From the NCBI GenBank assembly GCA_030037895.1, contig JASHPW010000100.1, positions 1 to 50,326 of the forward strand: a stretch of DNA of 50,326 nt, given 5' to 3'. The notes below the pieces were generated by a model. That model searched no databases. It worked only from the letters and a program-made list of their open reading frames with translations, and was not told the origin of the DNA. Shown piece by piece: positions 3,854 through 48,753 of this stretch. Numbering within the stretch: the stretch's first letter is position 1; each line of letters opens with the position of its first letter. Origin of the DNA: Xanthobacteraceae bacterium. GTDB lineage: Bacteria > Pseudomonadota > Alphaproteobacteria > Rhizobiales > Xanthobacteraceae. A program made the position numbers and the translations under genes.

Positions 3854-4189
3854 GGATTTGAGATTTCCGAGCGCAATCCGCTGAGCCTGCGGGCCGCCGT
3901 GCGATCGTCGCGGCGGATCGGGCGAGCGGTCGGCTCTTGCAATCGGCAGCGGGAACGACCCGTGGCCGGCTCCCACTTGTCATTGACAAGGCCGGGCTGC
4001 TCGTCATGATCGCCGCCGTTTAGAGCATGATCCGGAAAAGTGGGAACCGGTTTTCCGAAAAGATCATGCTCCATCAATAAGTTAGCGCGCAATCCGATTC
4101 AATGCGATCGGATTGCTTGCTAGCGCAAGACGAACCGCGCTTCGATCCGACCGCGCCTGAATCTCAACCCGTCATGTTGCGGCTCAGCC
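3854..4189. other. Intergenic region holding a double-hairpin repeat
   Basis: This 336-base gap between the outer-membrane protein gene and nnrU holds no convincing gene. The main structure is the palindromic repeat at 4023-4116 described separately. The first part, about 3855-4010, is ordinary GC-rich spacer with no clear promoter. Confidence 0.6.
4023..4116. repeat. Composite double-hairpin intergenic repeat (module A + module C)
   Basis: Module A at 4023-4071 begins GAGCATGATCCGGAAAAG and ends with the complementary AAGATCATGCTC; its centre carries AACCGGTT. It is followed after about 17 bases by a second stem (module C), GCAATCCGAT at 4089-4098 pairing with ATCGGATTGC at 4107-4116. Module A recurs almost exactly at 8856-8904 and, with altered arms but the same core, near 31670-31713. 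Such palindromes are numerous in Bradyrhizobium-like genomes; their function (terminator, nuclease site or mobile REP-type element) is not known from this sequence. Confidence 0.85.
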
Positions 4190-8550: not shown

Positions 8551-8953
8551 GGATCGCTCCAAGGCCCGTTGAGCGCATAATGCTGGAGAAAAGGCGGGCG
8601 GAGTCCGGTGCCTGGAAGCACTGAAGAGCGCTGCGCTCAGTGCGCGCCCCCCTCCTTGGTCCTCCCCCTTTCAGGGGGAGGAAAGAGAAAACGAGCTGTT
8701 TTCCTTCCCACTGAACCGGTTTTCCCTCCGTCTGATTTTCTCTCCTCCCTGATTTCTCTCCCTCCCCCTGAAAGGGGGAGGGGGTCTTTGTTGGGGAGGG
8801 GGTCTGCTGAGTCGAAGATTCCTCCTGATTCAGCGAATAGTGAAAGCGGGTCCCAGAGCATGATCCGGAAAAGTGGAAACCGGTTTTCCGAAAAGATCAT
8901 GCTCCACCAAGAAGCTGGAGCGGGATGACGATTCGAAGATAAGTCATCCCGCT
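8551..8953. other. Repeat-rich spacer between convergent der and SDR genes
   Basis: No gene is supported in this 403-base gap. It holds a large imperfect inverted repeat (8660-8784) and a double-hairpin repeat (8856-8954). The last hairpin touches the stop codon of the leftward SDR gene, so the region probably ends transcripts from both sides. Confidence 0.7.
8660..8784. repeat. Imperfect inverted repeat, about 125 bases, with C/G-rich hairpins at both ends
   Basis: The left end is a hairpin TCCTCCCCCT-TTC-AGGGGGAGGA (8660-8682) followed by AAGAGAAA. The right end is its reverse image, TTTCTCTC then CCCTCCCCCT-GAA-AGGGGGAGGG (8760-8782). The arms therefore match over about 30 bases in opposite orientation, with a pyrimidine-rich centre of about 70 bases. 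This is the shape of a small non-coding MITE-like element. No coding sequence or transposase is present. Related C/G-run hairpins occur at 45794-45810 and near 49708. Confidence 0.7.
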
Positions 8954-13463: not shown

Positions 13464-14612
13464 TCAAGCACCGCGATAGATCAAACAGCAACGTGGGCCA
13501 AGGCGGGTGAGGACCTCGTAACCGATGGTCCCGGCCGCTGCGGCGACATCGTCAACGGTCATGTCTCCGCCGATGAACGTCGCGACGTCGCCCCGGTGGA
13601 CGGCATCATCGGGAAGATCGGTGATGTCGAGGCAAACCAAATCCATTGAAATGCGGCCGGCGAACGGACAGCGTTTCCCCGCGACGAGTGCCGAACCGCC
13701 GCGCGCGCCGTCGGCGGCGCTTGCGGCCCGCATCAGCCCGTCGGCATAGCCCAACGCGGCGACGGCGATGCGCGAGGCATGTTTTGCCGTCCATGTGGCG
13801 CCGTAGCCGACCGCTTCGCCGCGGGCGACGGTGCGGATCTGCAGGATGCGCCCGGTCAGTTCGACGACGCCGCGCATCGGATTGGGGCGGCTCGGGGTTG
13901 GATTGATGCCATAGAGCGCCGCGCCGGGCCTTGCCAGATCATAAAGCGCCGAATAACCGAGGAAAATGCCGGCGGAATTGGCAAGCGACGCAGGTATGCC
14001 GGGGTACAGGGCGCGGACTTCGCGAAAGAGTTTGATCTGGGTGGCGGTAAGGGGGTGATCCGCAATTTCGGCGCAGGCCAAGTGGCTCATGAGGAGCGTG
14101 ATGCCGTGATTCCCGGTCTGCACGCGCAGCGCCAGCGCCGCGGCTTCCTCGGCGGAAATGCCGAGCCGGTTCATGCCGGTATCGACCTGGAGCGCGGCCC
14201 CCCCTTGCCAGTTGCGCGCGGCGACGAAAGCATCCCACTCCGCAAGTTCCGCCATGCTGTTGATGACCGGCCGCGCGTTGAGCTCGGTGTAAGCCGCGGC
14301 CGCTTCGGGTGAATAGCCGTTGAGCACGTAGATCGTGGCCTCCTGCGCGCAACCGCGCACGCGTCGCGCTTCCGCGAGATCGGCCACGAAGAACGTCTTG
14401 CAGCCGGCCTTGGTGAGTTTCGTCGTGACCGGCTCGAGTCCCAGGCCATAAGCATTGGCCTTGACCACGGCCGCGCATTCGGCGGTCAGCGCTTGGCGCG
14501 CGAGCGCACGCCAGTTCGCTTCGACGGCGTCAAGATCGATGACGAGCGTGCCGCCGGTTTCCGGCTCGGCCGCAATGCGCTCGGGCTCGGTCAGCTTTTC
14601 CGCAAGGGCCAT
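13464..14612 (-). CDS. alr: Alanine racemase
   Basis: This PLP enzyme interconverts L- and D-alanine and supplies D-Ala for peptidoglycan. The 382-residue product has the PLP lysine in AAVVKANAYGLG (Lys51) and the second catalytic residue Tyr in AVGYGATW near residue 270. The barrel domain comes first, with the C-terminal beta domain (ISMDLVCLDITDLPD) after it. Length is normal. It follows dnaB on the same strand, as in many Rhizobiales, but here a rightward transposase gene and two hairpins separate the two. A REP hairpin lies 49 bases upstream of its start. Confidence 0.95.
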   Translation of the reverse strand: MALAEKLTEPERIAAEPETGGTLVIDLDAVEANWRALARQALTAECAAVVKANAYGLGLEPVTTKLTKAGCKTFFVADLAEARRVRGCAQEATIYVLNGYSPEAAAAYTELNARPVINSMAELAEWDAFVAARNWQGGAALQVDTGMNRLGISAEEAAALALRVQTGNHGITLLMSHLACAEIADHPLTATQIKLFREVRALYPGIPASLANSAGIFLGYSALYDLARPGAALYGINPTPSRPNPMRGVVELTGRILQIRTVARGEAVGYGATWTAKHASRIAVAALGYADGLMRAASAADGARGGSALVAGKRCPFAGRISMDLVCLDITDLPDDAVHRGDVATFIGGDMTVDDVAAAAGTIGYEVLTRLGPRCCLIYRGA

Positions 14613-14660
14613 GGCTGCGTTATGGCCGGTGCCGGGATACTGGTAAAGTGTGATGAAGCC

Positions 14661-14695
14661 GTCGTAGGGGCCGGTTTGAAACCCGCCCCTACGAC
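14661..14695. repeat. REP-type hairpin, left of the RAYT gene
   Basis: GTCGTAGGGGCCGGTTT and AAACCCGCCCCTACGAC form 17-base arms around a single central G, with one mismatch. It is the near-identical partner of the hairpin at 15216-15252 and stands 27 bases before the transposase start. It also lies in the upstream region of alr, which reads leftward. Confidence 0.9.
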
Positions 14696-14722
14696 ATCCG
14701 AGGGATCGAAGGCGATCTTACT

Positions 14723-15223
14723 GTGATCCAGGCTCACCACCGGCGCCGATCCCTCCGTCTTAAAGGCTACGACTACTCGCAGGCAGGCGCGTATTTCGTA
14801 ACGATTTGCACGCGCGGCCGGACGTGTGTTTTCGGCGACATTGCTCTGAGCATCATGCAGCTAAATGAGAACGGTGTGATCGCACAGAAAGCTTGGAACG
14901 CGCTGCCAGAACATTACCACCATGTGTCATTGGATGCATTCGTCGTGATGCCAAACCACGTTCACGGCATCATCATCTTGACAGACGATCCAAAATTGCA
15001 CGCCTTGTCAGAAATCGTGCGTGCGTTCAAAACTTTTTCTGCTCGCGCCATCAACCACCATAATGGCACGCGCGGCGCATTCGTGTGGCAACGCAACTAC
15101 TATGAGCACATTGTCCGTAATGAAAACGAGTTGAGCCGGATTCGGAGATACATCGTCGACAATCCGGCATGCTGGGCGAAGGATGGCAACAATCCTGCTG
15201 TTTGGTCCCTTCGAGAGTCGTAG
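14723..15223 (+). CDS. REP-associated tyrosine transposase (RAYT, Y1 HUH family)
   Basis: A 166-residue single-strand DNA transposase-like protein of the IS200/Y1 superfamily, REP-associated (TnpA-REP) branch. The HUH metal motif is MPNHVHG (His79 and His81). The candidate catalytic Tyr is in WQRNYYEHI (Tyr126 or 127), followed by the family segment RNENELSRIRRYIVDNP. The start is GTG at 14723 and length is typical of RAYTs (about 150-190). It is flanked by two near-identical REP hairpins (14661-14695 and 15216-15252), the standard sign of a RAYT with its cognate repeats. Its TAG stop is inside the right hairpin. It lies in the conserved dnaB-alr interval and has lower GC than its neighbours, so it was probably acquired. 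RAYTs are usually single-copy, domesticated elements that cut and join REP sequences. Confidence 0.9.
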   Translation: MIQAHHRRRSLRLKGYDYSQAGAYFVTICTRGRTCVFGDIALSIMQLNENGVIAQKAWNALPEHYHHVSLDAFVVMPNHVHGIIILTDDPKLHALSEIVRAFKTFSARAINHHNGTRGAFVWQRNYYEHIVRNENELSRIRRYIVDNPACWAKDGNNPAVWSLRES

Positions 15224-15252
15224 GGGCGGGTTTGAAACCCGCCCCTACGACT
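15216..15252. repeat. Perfect REP hairpin shared by the 3' ends of RAYT and dnaB
   Basis: AGTCGTAGGGGCGGGTTT (15216-15233), a central G, and its exact complement (15235-15252) form an 18-base perfect stem. The TAG at 15221-15223 ends the rightward transposase gene. The mirror-image TAG on the other strand (15247-15245) ends dnaB. The hairpin thus supplies both stop codons and probably a bidirectional terminator. Confidence 0.92.
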
Positions 15253-16729
15253 GGTGTGCGGAATCGAGGTTGGCAAAGCGGGTGACCGCGGCCTCGAACT
15301 GCAATTCGACGGTGCCGGTCGGGCCGTGGCGCTGCTTGCCGATGATCACCTCCGCCTTGCCCGCCACGCGCTCGCCTTCGGCCAGCCACTCGGCGAACTT
15401 TTCCCGGTTTGCTTCCGTGGGCTTGCGCATCTGGTGGTAATACTCTTCGCGGAACACGAACAGCACCACGTCGGCGTCCTGCTCGATCGAGCCTGATTCG
15501 CGCAAATCGGACAGCTGCGGCCGCTTGTCCTCGCGGCCCTCCACCTGCCGCGACAATTGCGAGAGCGCGAGCACGGGAACGTTGAGTTCCTTGGCCAGCG
15601 CCTTGAGCCGGGTGGTGATCTCGGTGATCTCCTGCACGCGGTTCTCGCTGGCGCGGCGGCTTGATCCTTGCAGGAGCTGAACGTAGTCGATGACCAGGAG
15701 ATCGAGCCCGCGCTGGCGCTTGAGCCGGCGCGCGCGGGCGGCCAACTGGCCGATCGACAGGCCGCCGGTCTCGTCGACGTAGAACGGCAGGTTCTGCAGT
15801 TCGATCGAGACGTCCTTGATTTTCTCGAAGTCGGCCTCGTCGATGGCGCCGCGGCGGATCTTGTTCGACGGTATGCCGGTCTGCTCGGCGATGATGCGGG
15901 TCGCGAGCTGCTCGGCCGACATTTCCAAGGAGAAGAATCCGACGATCCCGCCGTTGACGGTCGCCATGTGCCCGTCGGTGCGGACCTCGCCCGACCACGC
16001 CTTGGCGACATTGTAGGCGACATTGGTGGCAAGGGCGGTCTTGCCCATGCCCGGGCGGCCGGCAAGGATGATCAGATCGGACGGCTGCAGGCCGCCCATC
16101 CTGGAATCGAGGTCGGTGAGGCCGGTCGCGAGCCCGGAGAGGCCGCCGTCGCGCTGATAGGCGTGGGCGGCCATGTCGACCGCCGTGGTGAGCGCCTGGG
16201 CGAAGCGTTGGAAGCCCGACTCGTAGCGTCCCGTTTCGGCCAGCTCGTAGAGCTTGCGCTCGGCGTCTTCGATATGGCTTTGCGGTGTGGAGTCGACCGG
16301 CGCGTCGTAGGCGAGATTGACCATGTCCTCGCCGATCGCGATCAGGTCGCGGCGGATCGAAAGATCATAGACGGTGCGGCCGTAATCCTCGGCGTTGATG
16401 ATCGTGGTCGCCTCGGCGGCGAGTCGCGCCAGGTATTGGTTGACCGTGAGGCCGGCAATGTCGAAGTCCGCCGGCAGGAACGTCTTCAACGTCACCGGCG
16501 TCGCCAGTTTTCCGGCCCGCACCAGGCCGCCGGCAAGCTCGAAGATGCGCTGGTGGATCGGCTCGAAGAAATGCTTCGGTTCGAGGAAGTCGGAGACGCG
16601 GTAGAACGCCTCGTTATTGACGAGGATGGCGCCGAGCAGCGCCTGCTCGGCTTCGATATTGTGCGGTTGCGCGCGGAACGCCGGTTCCGCGGGGGCTTGC
16701 TTGCGTACAGCCGAATCGAATGGTGCCAT
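15245..16729 (-). CDS. dnaB: Replicative DNA helicase DnaB
   Basis: DnaB is the hexameric 5'-3' helicase of the replication fork. The 494-residue product from ATG 16729 has the N-terminal domain (PHNIEAEQALLGAIL, about 20-130), then the RecA-like motor with Walker A GRPGMGKT, Walker B LLVIDYVQL, and the arginine-finger and hexamer motifs in the last third. An in-frame upstream Met at 16771 adds 14 residues and is less likely. An insert at about 255-275 (GEVRTDGHMATVNGGI) between Walker A and the FFSLEM segment is common in alphaproteobacterial DnaB; no intein is present. The stop codon is inside the REP hairpin shared with the RAYT gene, so the last residues may have been altered by that insertion. 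Confidence 0.96.
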   Translation of the reverse strand: MAPFDSAVRKQAPAEPAFRAQPHNIEAEQALLGAILVNNEAFYRVSDFLEPKHFFEPIHQRIFELAGGLVRAGKLATPVTLKTFLPADFDIAGLTVNQYLARLAAEATTIINAEDYGRTVYDLSIRRDLIAIGEDMVNLAYDAPVDSTPQSHIEDAERKLYELAETGRYESGFQRFAQALTTAVDMAAHAYQRDGGLSGLATGLTDLDSRMGGLQPSDLIILAGRPGMGKTALATNVAYNVAKAWSGEVRTDGHMATVNGGIVGFFSLEMSAEQLATRIIAEQTGIPSNKIRRGAIDEADFEKIKDVSIELQNLPFYVDETGGLSIGQLAARARRLKRQRGLDLLVIDYVQLLQGSSRRASENRVQEITEITTRLKALAKELNVPVLALSQLSRQVEGREDKRPQLSDLRESGSIEQDADVVLFVFREEYYHQMRKPTEANREKFAEWLAEGERVAGKAEVIIGKQRHGPTGTVELQFEAAVTRFANLDSAHQS

Positions 16730-16971
16730 GATCCCGATCAGGGAATTCTCGTGTGGCCGATTTGCGGTCACGCGACATCGCGGATCACTCTACAGCGGCG
16801 GCATGTCCCAGCCCGTTGCACGCAACCACGCCGGACCCGTCGATAATCGCGCCGCGCCGGGATGGGAAATCCTCATTGCCGCTTTCCCCGCTACCCACCG
16901 TCGCCGCGTGAGCAACCGCGATCGGCGCCGATCGCTCTTGACTGCCGCCCCTTTAACGGCGTGGCGCCGCG

Positions 16972-46458: not shown

Positions 46459-47310
46459 TTACGGCGGGGCCGGGGGGGTCACGATCGGGGCTTGAGGAGA
46501 TATCACAATTGCCGGAGATGCGCCCCCCTTTACGGTAACCTTTCCGGCAGCGCTGGCGTATGGCGAGCTCGTTTCGCCAGCGGCATCTAGAACTAATAAA
46601 ACAAAATTTGAGAGGCAGCCTTTGAGCTTATCATCTACCGCCATGTACAGTTCATGGCTGCCATAAAGTCCGAGGTTCACGACGGGCATGCCCGCGGGTG
46701 GCAAGCGCTCCAAACCAGTAATTCGAGAGGGGCCGGAATAATAGATCCAGTCCCTACACAAGGTCGGACCAGGTTGTTGTGTTTTTTTGTTTATTACGAG
46801 GTGATTTTTCGAGAGAAAGAAAGGGTCTGGCACTGCTTTAGGAGAACGAGCTTGAGGGATGTAGTATATCTCGGGATATCTCATAAGTATGTCGATATCA
46901 TTTTGTGCAGCAAATCCGTATAGCGCCCGCAAACGTCTCAGATTATCTCCATCTGTCACAGGTACAATTGACCAAGCTTGCGTCCACTGGTCACTCAGTG
47001 GAGCCTGCAGCGAATTTGCTGCTGTTTTCGTGGTGGACGCGGCTGCAGCAACAACGCTCGCGCTGGTTAAAGTCGACGTAATTGATGGCGTCACAGAGTT
47101 AGTCGTAGACACAGTACCACCGTTAATTTCTACCTGATCCGGAACAGCATCTGTGTCATCGATGAATTTGCTGATGTTATACAATACCTGCTTTGTTTGG
47201 AGGCTTTCAACCGTTGAAGCGATTTCGAGAGTGTTGAAGTTCAACTGAGCTGAAGCGCAGCCGCTCAATAGTAAAAAAATAGCAATTGATACCGACGATG
47301 TCTTTCTCAT
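46459..47310 (-). CDS. Predicted lipoprotein of an uncharacterised family
   Basis: A 283-residue lipoprotein from ATG 47310 (the frame opens eight codons earlier). The lipobox is LLLSGCAS, with Cys at about residue 18. The mature start QLNFNTLEIASTVESL, then QVLYNISKFIDD, DAVPDQVEINGGTV and SVTPSIT, resembles a family of proteobacterial hypothetical proteins that I recall but cannot name. A Thr/Ser/Ala-rich linker follows, then NLRRLRALYGFAA and a second domain. The C-terminus is Pro/Ile/Val-rich (SPQAPIVTPPAPP). It starts 45 bases after the S53 peptidase stop on the same strand and is probably cotranscribed. GC is visibly below the core genes. Confidence 0.7.
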   Translation of the reverse strand: MRKTSSVSIAIFLLLSGCASAQLNFNTLEIASTVESLQTKQVLYNISKFIDDTDAVPDQVEINGGTVSTTNSVTPSITSTLTSASVVAAAASTTKTAANSLQAPLSDQWTQAWSIVPVTDGDNLRRLRALYGFAAQNDIDILMRYPEIYYIPQARSPKAVPDPFFLSKNHLVINKKTQQPGPTLCRDWIYYSGPSRITGLERLPPAGMPVVNLGLYGSHELYMAVDDKLKGCLSNFVLLVLDAAGETSSPYASAAGKVTVKGGASPAIVISPQAPIVTPPAPP

Positions 47311-47355
47311 TTGATGCCCCGACCCTCCGCCCACCGACCCTCACTTAGGGTTGGA

Positions 47356-48753
47356 CTAAAGGCCCCTCAGTCCCAAAGGAGAGCCCACACCGCTGCAAAA
47401 ATCCCAGCCAATTGCTGCCGAGTAGCCACGTGTTCCGCATTTTCCGGTCACGATATCCGTAAAAGATTTGGATCCAAGATTTGAATAGATCGTAGTAAGC
47501 TGGTCAGTGCTGGTTTTTGCAAAGCCGCCGGCGCTGTTAATAATTCCCGAAATAATTGGTGTTGCAGCGCTCGTGCCACCAAGATTGATCCAATTCTGAT
47601 TGGTCTGGGGATAATCTTTTGAGTAAACCCATACGCCTCCCGCTTCGAGATCTGCAATTGCAGCGATGTCAACGACGCCCCGCGTTCGACCAACAATCTT
47701 GCTGACTTTCTTCTGATACGTCGGTAGCCCGGCAGTGCTCGAACCGGCTCCTTCGCTCGCCCAGACCGTCTCGCCCGTAAAATTTGTGCCCGATCGGACG
47801 ATTGACGTCCCGCCGACCGAAACAACAAAGTCAGAACTGGCGGGGTATTCAACACCCTTCGCGTCGCCGCTGGCGCCGACGTACACGATACCAGGAATGA
47901 TGAAGTATTTGTCGTACGCATAAAGTCCAGGCGTTTCGGGATACGCCCAACTCATCGAGACCTCACCGCCTCCCTCTTTCGCCACGAGTTTAGATGCAAG
48001 CGAAATTGCGGATGCAAGGTCATCCATGCAATTCGTTGCAGCCTCCACGAGAATTATTTTTGCGGAAGGGGCCATGGCGTGAGCCCACTCAATGTCCATG
48101 GAAGCTTCCCAGAGCCATCCCGGCATTGGTGTTGACTCACAGTTTCCAGTTGCGGGAGCAGCTTCCTGATCAAATGTCTTTTCCTTTGTACTGGGGACCG
48201 GCAGTTTAAAGTGCGAGCTAAAGGCAGCCAAATCCGTTTCTGCATTTGGCGCATGATACGCAATTACAACTGCGATCGCGCGACTTCCACCAGTCGGAAG
48301 GGTAAAAACCTCATTGGGGTTGCAGCTCGGATTGGTGACCGCAACAACTTTGTAGATGCAGGCTACAGATGCGGGTGTTTCAATCGTTGTTGAGTGCGCC
48401 GAAGGCACTCCTGCCGTCGGCGGCTGGACATCCGCCGAAGGCGTAACAATTGTGAGGTTCGTGTGAGCTCGAATTTCCACTTTCGGCAATGCACGCTTTA
48501 GGATGTCCACCGCGAATTTGGTTCCCGGAAGGGGCACGCTGGTAGGCAGCGAGCTAGCGCGATTAAATCCATACTCTTCGACGAGCGATGAAAAATCCTG
48601 CGTTGCTATAGGAATAGCAACGCTAGATGGTGGCAAACTAACAATATGCTTAGGAGGCGTATCCTGCGCATTGGTGAAGCTACCCCTTGAGACCGCAAGC
48701 ACTATCAATGCAATGAATGCAAACTGACTAAATCGCATCCCCGAGACGAGCAT
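47356..48753 (-). CDS. Secreted S53 (sedolisin/kumamolisin-type) serine-carboxyl peptidase
   Basis: A 465-residue exported protease-like protein. A signal peptide is present (FAFIALIVLAVSRGSFTNAQ). About 130 residues of Pro/Thr-rich sequence follow, without the classical activation domain that I can see, then the S53 catalytic fold. The catalytic residues are all visible: Glu216 and Asp220 in WEASMDIEWAHAMAP, oxyanion Asp297 in GASGDAKG, and Ser395 in GGTSAATP. The calcium-site loop is FTDIVTGKCG to GWDFCSGVGSPLG (Asp433 to Asp451). Family members are often active at acid pH. Cysteines around 133-144, 205/242 and 439/453 could form disulfides. The gene lies in a low-GC segment, upstream of and on the same strand as the lipoprotein gene. 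Confidence 0.88.
   Translation of the reverse strand: MLVSGMRFSQFAFIALIVLAVSRGSFTNAQDTPPKHIVSLPPSSVAIPIATQDFSSLVEEYGFNRASSLPTSVPLPGTKFAVDILKRALPKVEIRAHTNLTIVTPSADVQPPTAGVPSAHSTTIETPASVACIYKVVAVTNPSCNPNEVFTLPTGGSRAIAVVIAYHAPNAETDLAAFSSHFKLPVPSTKEKTFDQEAAPATGNCESTPMPGWLWEASMDIEWAHAMAPSAKIILVEAATNCMDDLASAISLASKLVAKEGGGEVSMSWAYPETPGLYAYDKYFIIPGIVYVGASGDAKGVEYPASSDFVVSVGGTSIVRSGTNFTGETVWASEGAGSSTAGLPTYQKKVSKIVGRTRGVVDIAAIADLEAGGVWVYSKDYPQTNQNWINLGGTSAATPIISGIINSAGGFAKTSTDQLTTIYSNLGSKSFTDIVTGKCGTRGYSAAIGWDFCSGVGSPLGLRGL

Follow-up and report, generated by a model that had tools for sequence, protein, structure and literature searches.

A minimal REPtron between dnaB and alr in a Xanthobacteraceae genome probably supplies the end of dnaB

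This study analyzed a 50,326-nucleotide stretch of DNA from a Xanthobacteraceae bacterium (the window) and identified a REPtron lodged between dnaB and alr. The segment from 14661 to 15252, which measures 592 bp from hairpin to hairpin and carries no other cargo, can be described as a minimal REPtron composed of an HUH/Y1 transposase, apparently closest to TnpA_REP subclass 2.4, and one hairpin at each end. The unit is a real REPtron insertion, REPtrons themselves being already known. We consider it probable that this unit arrived horizontally and was inserted as a single piece, most likely by its own transposase. The features of the locus are as follows.

13464 to 14612, minus strand: alr (alanine racemase), the next gene downstream of dnaB.
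14613 to 14660, minus strand: host sequence retained upstream of alr, in which a promoter-like pair (CTTTAC-18 nt-CATAA) is conserved, as judged by alignment with 10 same-genus relatives.
14661 to 14695, no strand: left double-foot REP palindrome on the alr side, with GTAG...CTAC feet and one arm mismatch.
14723 to 15223, plus strand: RAYT (TnpA_REP) gene, GTG start, 166 residues, with the motifs NHVH, WQ, and YIVDNP and a TAG stop inside the right hairpin.
15216 to 15252, no strand: right double-foot REP palindrome, in which the plus-strand TAG at 15221-15223 ends the RAYT.
15247 to 15245, minus strand: the TAG of the right palindrome that ends dnaB.
15245 to 16771, minus strand: dnaB, whose stop is element-derived, as its last sense codon probably is too.

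A sequence-only reading of the window had placed the RAYT between near-identical palindromes, and the comparison of the two bore this out: they differ at one base, with 97% identity across 35 nt. The right palindrome comprises two perfect 18-nt arms and a 1-nt spacer, and the coordinates agree with the earlier description of a perfect 18-base stem containing TAG on both strands, one ending the RAYT and the other dnaB. Both palindromes possess GTAG and CTAC feet, and GTAG can thus be read on either strand. The predicted RNA fold reached -33.7 kcal/mol (z -9.3) for the right hairpin and -25.9 kcal/mol (z -6.4) for the left. The inner tails of the hairpins exhibited no significant inverted similarity beyond the palindromes (p about 0.14 to 0.17); the exact ends of the element are therefore uncertain and the boundaries given here are approximate. 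dnaB and alr are co-directional, so that the RAYT is convergent with dnaB and divergent from alr.

We searched for further copies of the hairpin core. In the window, the core (at most two mismatches) occurred in four arms only, where shuffling expects 0.13. In the 3,270,626-base assembly, it occurred (at most one mismatch) in the two terminal palindromes only, with 0 hits for the reversed-pattern control. The earlier expectation that the hairpin would be one of many REPs in the genome was thus not borne out, and the dispersed REPs of a REPtron were not found in the 3.27 Mb searched at this threshold; this draft consists of 148 contigs and is 89.9% complete, and core copies may lie in the missing part or have degenerated.

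The identification of the protein as a RAYT was upheld by NCBIfam model NF047646 (REP-associated tyrosine transposase), for which the score of 81 bits is only just above the cut-off of 80. The protein also matched Pfam Y1_Tnp (40.4 bits, cut-off 23) and remained below the cut-off of the NCBIfam IS200 transposase model (30.8 vs 55 bits); a PADLOC analysis yielded no match. HVH at residue 79 and YIVDNP at residue 143 correspond to the HUH motif and the class 2 Y---NP motif, and WQ is also present. The similarity to solved transposases was marginal (E 0.018 to 0.93), the closest being the TnpArep structure 4er8 (E 0.018), which we take to be from E. coli. Among the matches listed, the nearest RAYT was 63% identical (67% by a second comparison).

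Double-foot hairpins cluster around related RAYTs. We counted 27 in 50,897 bp near these genes (0.53 per kb) and 11 in the 262,565 bp lying at distances above 1 kb (0.042 per kb), and shuffled near-RAYT regions yielded 0.25 hairpins per set vs the 27 observed. We kept the best 80 of at least 582 confirmed relatives, and in 45 of these 80 the RAYT ORF itself contained a hairpin. Beyond the gene, under a strict definition (within about 300 bp, where some contigs end), hairpins were present on both sides in 6 of the best 80, on one side in 15, and on neither in 59. The GTAGGGGC palindrome was detected in 33 of 36 genomes (the window's own, G032, and those of 34 relatives from among the 80, some of them selected because they had hairpins), with 1 to 198 copies per genome, compared with 0 to 3 for the reversed-pattern control. 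The double-foot REPs on both sides of the window RAYT support the REPtron-like arrangement proposed in the earlier reading, and no hairpin was found inside the window RAYT gene.

Sequence comparisons indicate that the element is foreign and probably entered the lineage of the window horizontally. Among 20 genomes of the genus, the RAYT was present in that of the window only, as a single copy, and four others exhibited weak partial matches (31 to 39%). Across 297 genomes of the order, 21 had a match including the window's; the best other match was 46% identical (G032), and all those outside these two genomes scored below 50 bits. No near-identical copy of the unit was found at another site. Exact GTAGGGGC palindromes, searched in 61 genomes including the window's own, were restricted to that genome and G018. 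The G018 genome, which belongs to the same genus, contains two lone double-foot hairpins (L155 and L157) with a different core, and no RAYT match. When the RAYT was used as a query, the plasmid search returned eight records, the best-ranked with 39.5% identity and one short piece with 56.5% over 28% of the query, the phage search returned one record (31.1%), and the search of viral contigs returned no confirmed match. The GC content of the element is 0.546 vs 0.648 for the window, and its GC3 is 0.64 vs 0.87 for dnaB and 0.77 for alr. However, approximately 4% of the 500-nt stretches of the window have a GC content equal to or below that of the RAYT, so low GC alone is modest evidence of foreignness. 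The lowest-GC 500-nt stretches of the window are located at 46701-47650 (0.46 to 0.49).

We then compared the site with those of relatives. The dnaB search covered 41 genomes, 20 of the same genus including the window's own; the other 19 provided 16 dnaB matches, from which 15 loci were fetched, and G002, G017, and G018 had no dnaB match in the genus search. Both dnaB and alr were present in 13 of the 15 loci. None of these 13 contained the RAYT or a GTAGGGG-type palindrome near the end of dnaB, a search that degenerate remnants would escape. In 10 of the 13, alignment with the window flanks revealed that the host sequence resumes on both sides without the element. The window DnaB terminates in ...LDSAHQS. 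The last residue of DnaB is F or Y in 13 of the 15 fetched loci (the tails of L018 and L019 differ), and in 10 of the 13 alr-bearing loci the protein ends in (P/S)xF followed by its own stop. A RAYT-less relative with the same dnaB stop and hairpin, which would have contradicted the earlier reading, was encountered at none of the 13 assessable loci. The absence of the RAYT and the palindrome from relatives, together with their other DnaB ends, indicates that the insertion redefined the end of DnaB, and the claim that the repeat defines the DnaB C-terminus is supported; the dnaB stop comes from the element, and the last sense codon probably does too. The change is confined to a variable tail, since DnaB has 508 residues and its helicase domain extends only to residue 501.

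On the other side, the element separates the dnaB end from a putative promoter sequence of alr, which appears in the alignment to have stayed intact: all 11 aligned rows retain CTTTAC and 10 of the 11 retain CATAA, always with a spacing of 18 nt. This pair stands directly before the alr start codon (window 14613-14660; L007-L012 and L014-L017), a position that would fit a leaderless alr transcript. The dnaB-alr interval, which had been called usually tight, is below 100 bp in 9 of the 13 same-genus loci, but it ranges from 116 to 945 bp in the remaining 4 loci. The 116-bp interval of L011 (G013) contains a host-type palindrome at 1443-1487; this repeat, GCATGATC...GATCATGC, is unlike the REP and is also present in the window at 4025-4069 and 8858-8902. 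In three same-genus genomes (L013, L019, and L020), other inserts stretch the interval to 433 to 945 bp, which shows that it tolerates insertions.

The junction bears on how the unit arrived. With the element removed, 22 host bases lie between the conserved DnaB end and CTTTAC in the window, compared with 38 to 103 in 10 relatives; the window therefore has at least 16 host bases fewer than any of them, a deficit that simple insertion of the IS200 type leaves unexplained. The missing bases lower the odds of self-insertion and of REPtron mobility in general, and raise those of an alternative in which an immobile, domesticated RAYT was brought in by ordinary horizontal transfer and homologous or illegitimate recombination, the REPs being passengers and the transposase uninvolved. 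Illegitimate joining could leave such a loss, and the RAYT is single-copy in this genome. This alternative also agrees with the literature: in the available text of several papers, RAYTs are said to occur mostly as single copies and to give no sign of mobility, the accessible part of PMC8266576 reports no evidence for tnpAREP mobility, and that of PMC8049555 treats RAYTs as vertically inherited. Nevertheless, transfer of a fragment should have brought in more sequence, whereas alignable dnaB and alr-upstream sequence restarts a few bases beyond the hairpins and no foreign DNA was seen outside them. We consider transfer of an immobile RAYT unlikely, although worth weighing.

Under the preferred reading of insertion by the element's own transposase, the REPtron would have entered the lineage horizontally and then been inserted between dnaB and alr as a single unit. 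The insertion was most likely self-catalysed, through an IS200/IS605-like single-strand route in which the folded hairpins and GTAG feet would mark the ends, and a few host bases would have been lost at that time or later. The event would have removed the last DnaB residues, those past the helicase domain, and a hairpin-foot TAG that by chance lay in frame would have become the dnaB stop, leaving the promoter-like sequence of alr untouched.

We looked for empty sites at three further RAYT loci (L041, L065, and L095), the relatives compared for the first two being distant; at L037, L049, L085, L101, and L111, the neighboring genes were assigned to Pfam families. At L041, the RAYT is located between genes of the Pfam families M50 peptidase and GcpE, presumably rseP and ispG, and this pair is adjacent without a RAYT in 19 of 29 fetched relatives (gaps of -66 to 245 bp; the other 10 not assessable). 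At L065, the RAYT is located between what we take to be a cobU-like gene on the left and a cobT-family gene (Pfam DBI_PRT), a pair that is adjacent without a RAYT in 23 of 29 fetched relatives (gaps of -42 to 304 bp; the other 6 not assessable). The left double-foot hairpin of this locus (2801-2828) lies in frame within the cobU-like gene; the L065 RAYT is therefore not bounded by hairpins and its boundary is not clean. At L095, the empty-site comparison was uninformative, since the gene neighboring the RAYT has numerous relatives in every one of 61 genomes; here, the RAYT unit and its hairpins are tandemly duplicated (L095 2911-4000/L311) with about 93% identity, and the second copy has split matches. 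In G350, what looked like a duplicate RAYT was rejected, the two contigs concerned being identical over 2293 bp. The three cases fit mobility without proving that the transposase mobilizes the gene encoding it.

That subclass 2.4 REPtrons in general are autonomously mobile, IS-like elements moving from hairpin to hairpin as single units is a tentative proposal to which we lean less than to its opposite. If true, it would contradict the domesticated, immobile view of RAYT genes. A lone foreign RAYT with two hairpins, no other such repeats found, and empty sites in the genus make RAYT mobility directly testable, and the locus offers a test case that needs one small protein and one hairpin.

The sequence-only reading had also proposed that the right hairpin is a stop and transcription terminator shared by the convergent dnaB and RAYT. 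The in-frame TAG for both genes and the high stability of the hairpin on both strands are in line with retention for such a role. However, the terminator scan of 14500-15400 revealed no site and no terminator-like T-run, which speaks against the proposed terminator. From the REP-rich genome G345 we also inspected 20 stretches, containing 49 of its 198 hairpins, and dropped 3 edge cases. Among the remaining 46 hairpins, 5 provide one stop and 1 provides two; of 21 ORFs that extend into a foot, 7 read it in the TAG frame, which equals chance expectation. At the 80 RAYT loci, hairpins within RAYT ORFs included, the TAG frame is used by 8 of 37 foot-reaching ORFs and both feet serve as stops in 0 of 92 hairpins. 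With TAG-frame use at or below one third, the double stop is explained by frame chance on a symmetric palindrome, and retention of the hairpin as a shared stop and terminator is very improbable. Stop-sharing is a by-product and an already-described REP behavior: in the available text of Di Nocera et al. (PMC3733652), the ends of GTAG REPs often supply TAG stops to flanking ORFs. The hairpin presumably has no regulatory role at this locus.

An assembly artefact, in which the RAYT of another organism was joined through the near-identical hairpins, could arise in a draft of this kind whose unit ends share a 35-nt near-identical palindrome, but it is scarcely credible because the palindromes are distinguishable by one base and a single 50-kb contig contains the unit far from its ends. 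Least credible of all is a RAYT ancestral to the dnaB-alr site and lost in relatives: the direction of change does rest on the number of relatives, without a tree, but all 13 assessable same-genus loci lack both the RAYT and an intact palindrome, no close RAYT exists elsewhere in the searched genus genomes, and the GC content of the element is lower.

The inserted REPtron resembles three known systems. With IS200/IS605 insertion sequences it shares an HUH/Y1 transposase, a hairpin at each end, and a small size, and it differs from them in its sub-cut-off IS200 score and single copy. The GTAG REPs and REPtrons described by Di Nocera et al. (2013; PMC3733652) likewise have a repeat-flanked RAYT and GTAG-foot TAG stops for flanking ORFs; in the accessible part of that paper, however, the GTAG motif is at one end and unpaired, whereas the GTAG and CTAC feet in the window are mutually paired. 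Subclass 2.4 of TnpA_REP (Bertels group 4) is characterized in the available text of PMC6006769 by NH[IFV]H, WQ, YIxNNP, double-foot REPs, and in-gene REPs that are predominant, not universal. The window unit differs from it in three respects: YIVDNP replaces the tabulated YIxNNP (D for N; among the best 80 of at least 582 relatives, YI.NNP occurs in 28 and YI.DNP in 13), the RAYT lacks the internal REP common among these relatives, and the assembly shows two REPs only. The likeness comprises NHVH, WQ, double-foot REPs, the flanking layout, and, among the matches listed, relatives scattered over phyla. By its motifs and two-footed hairpins, the window RAYT fits subclass 2.4 best.
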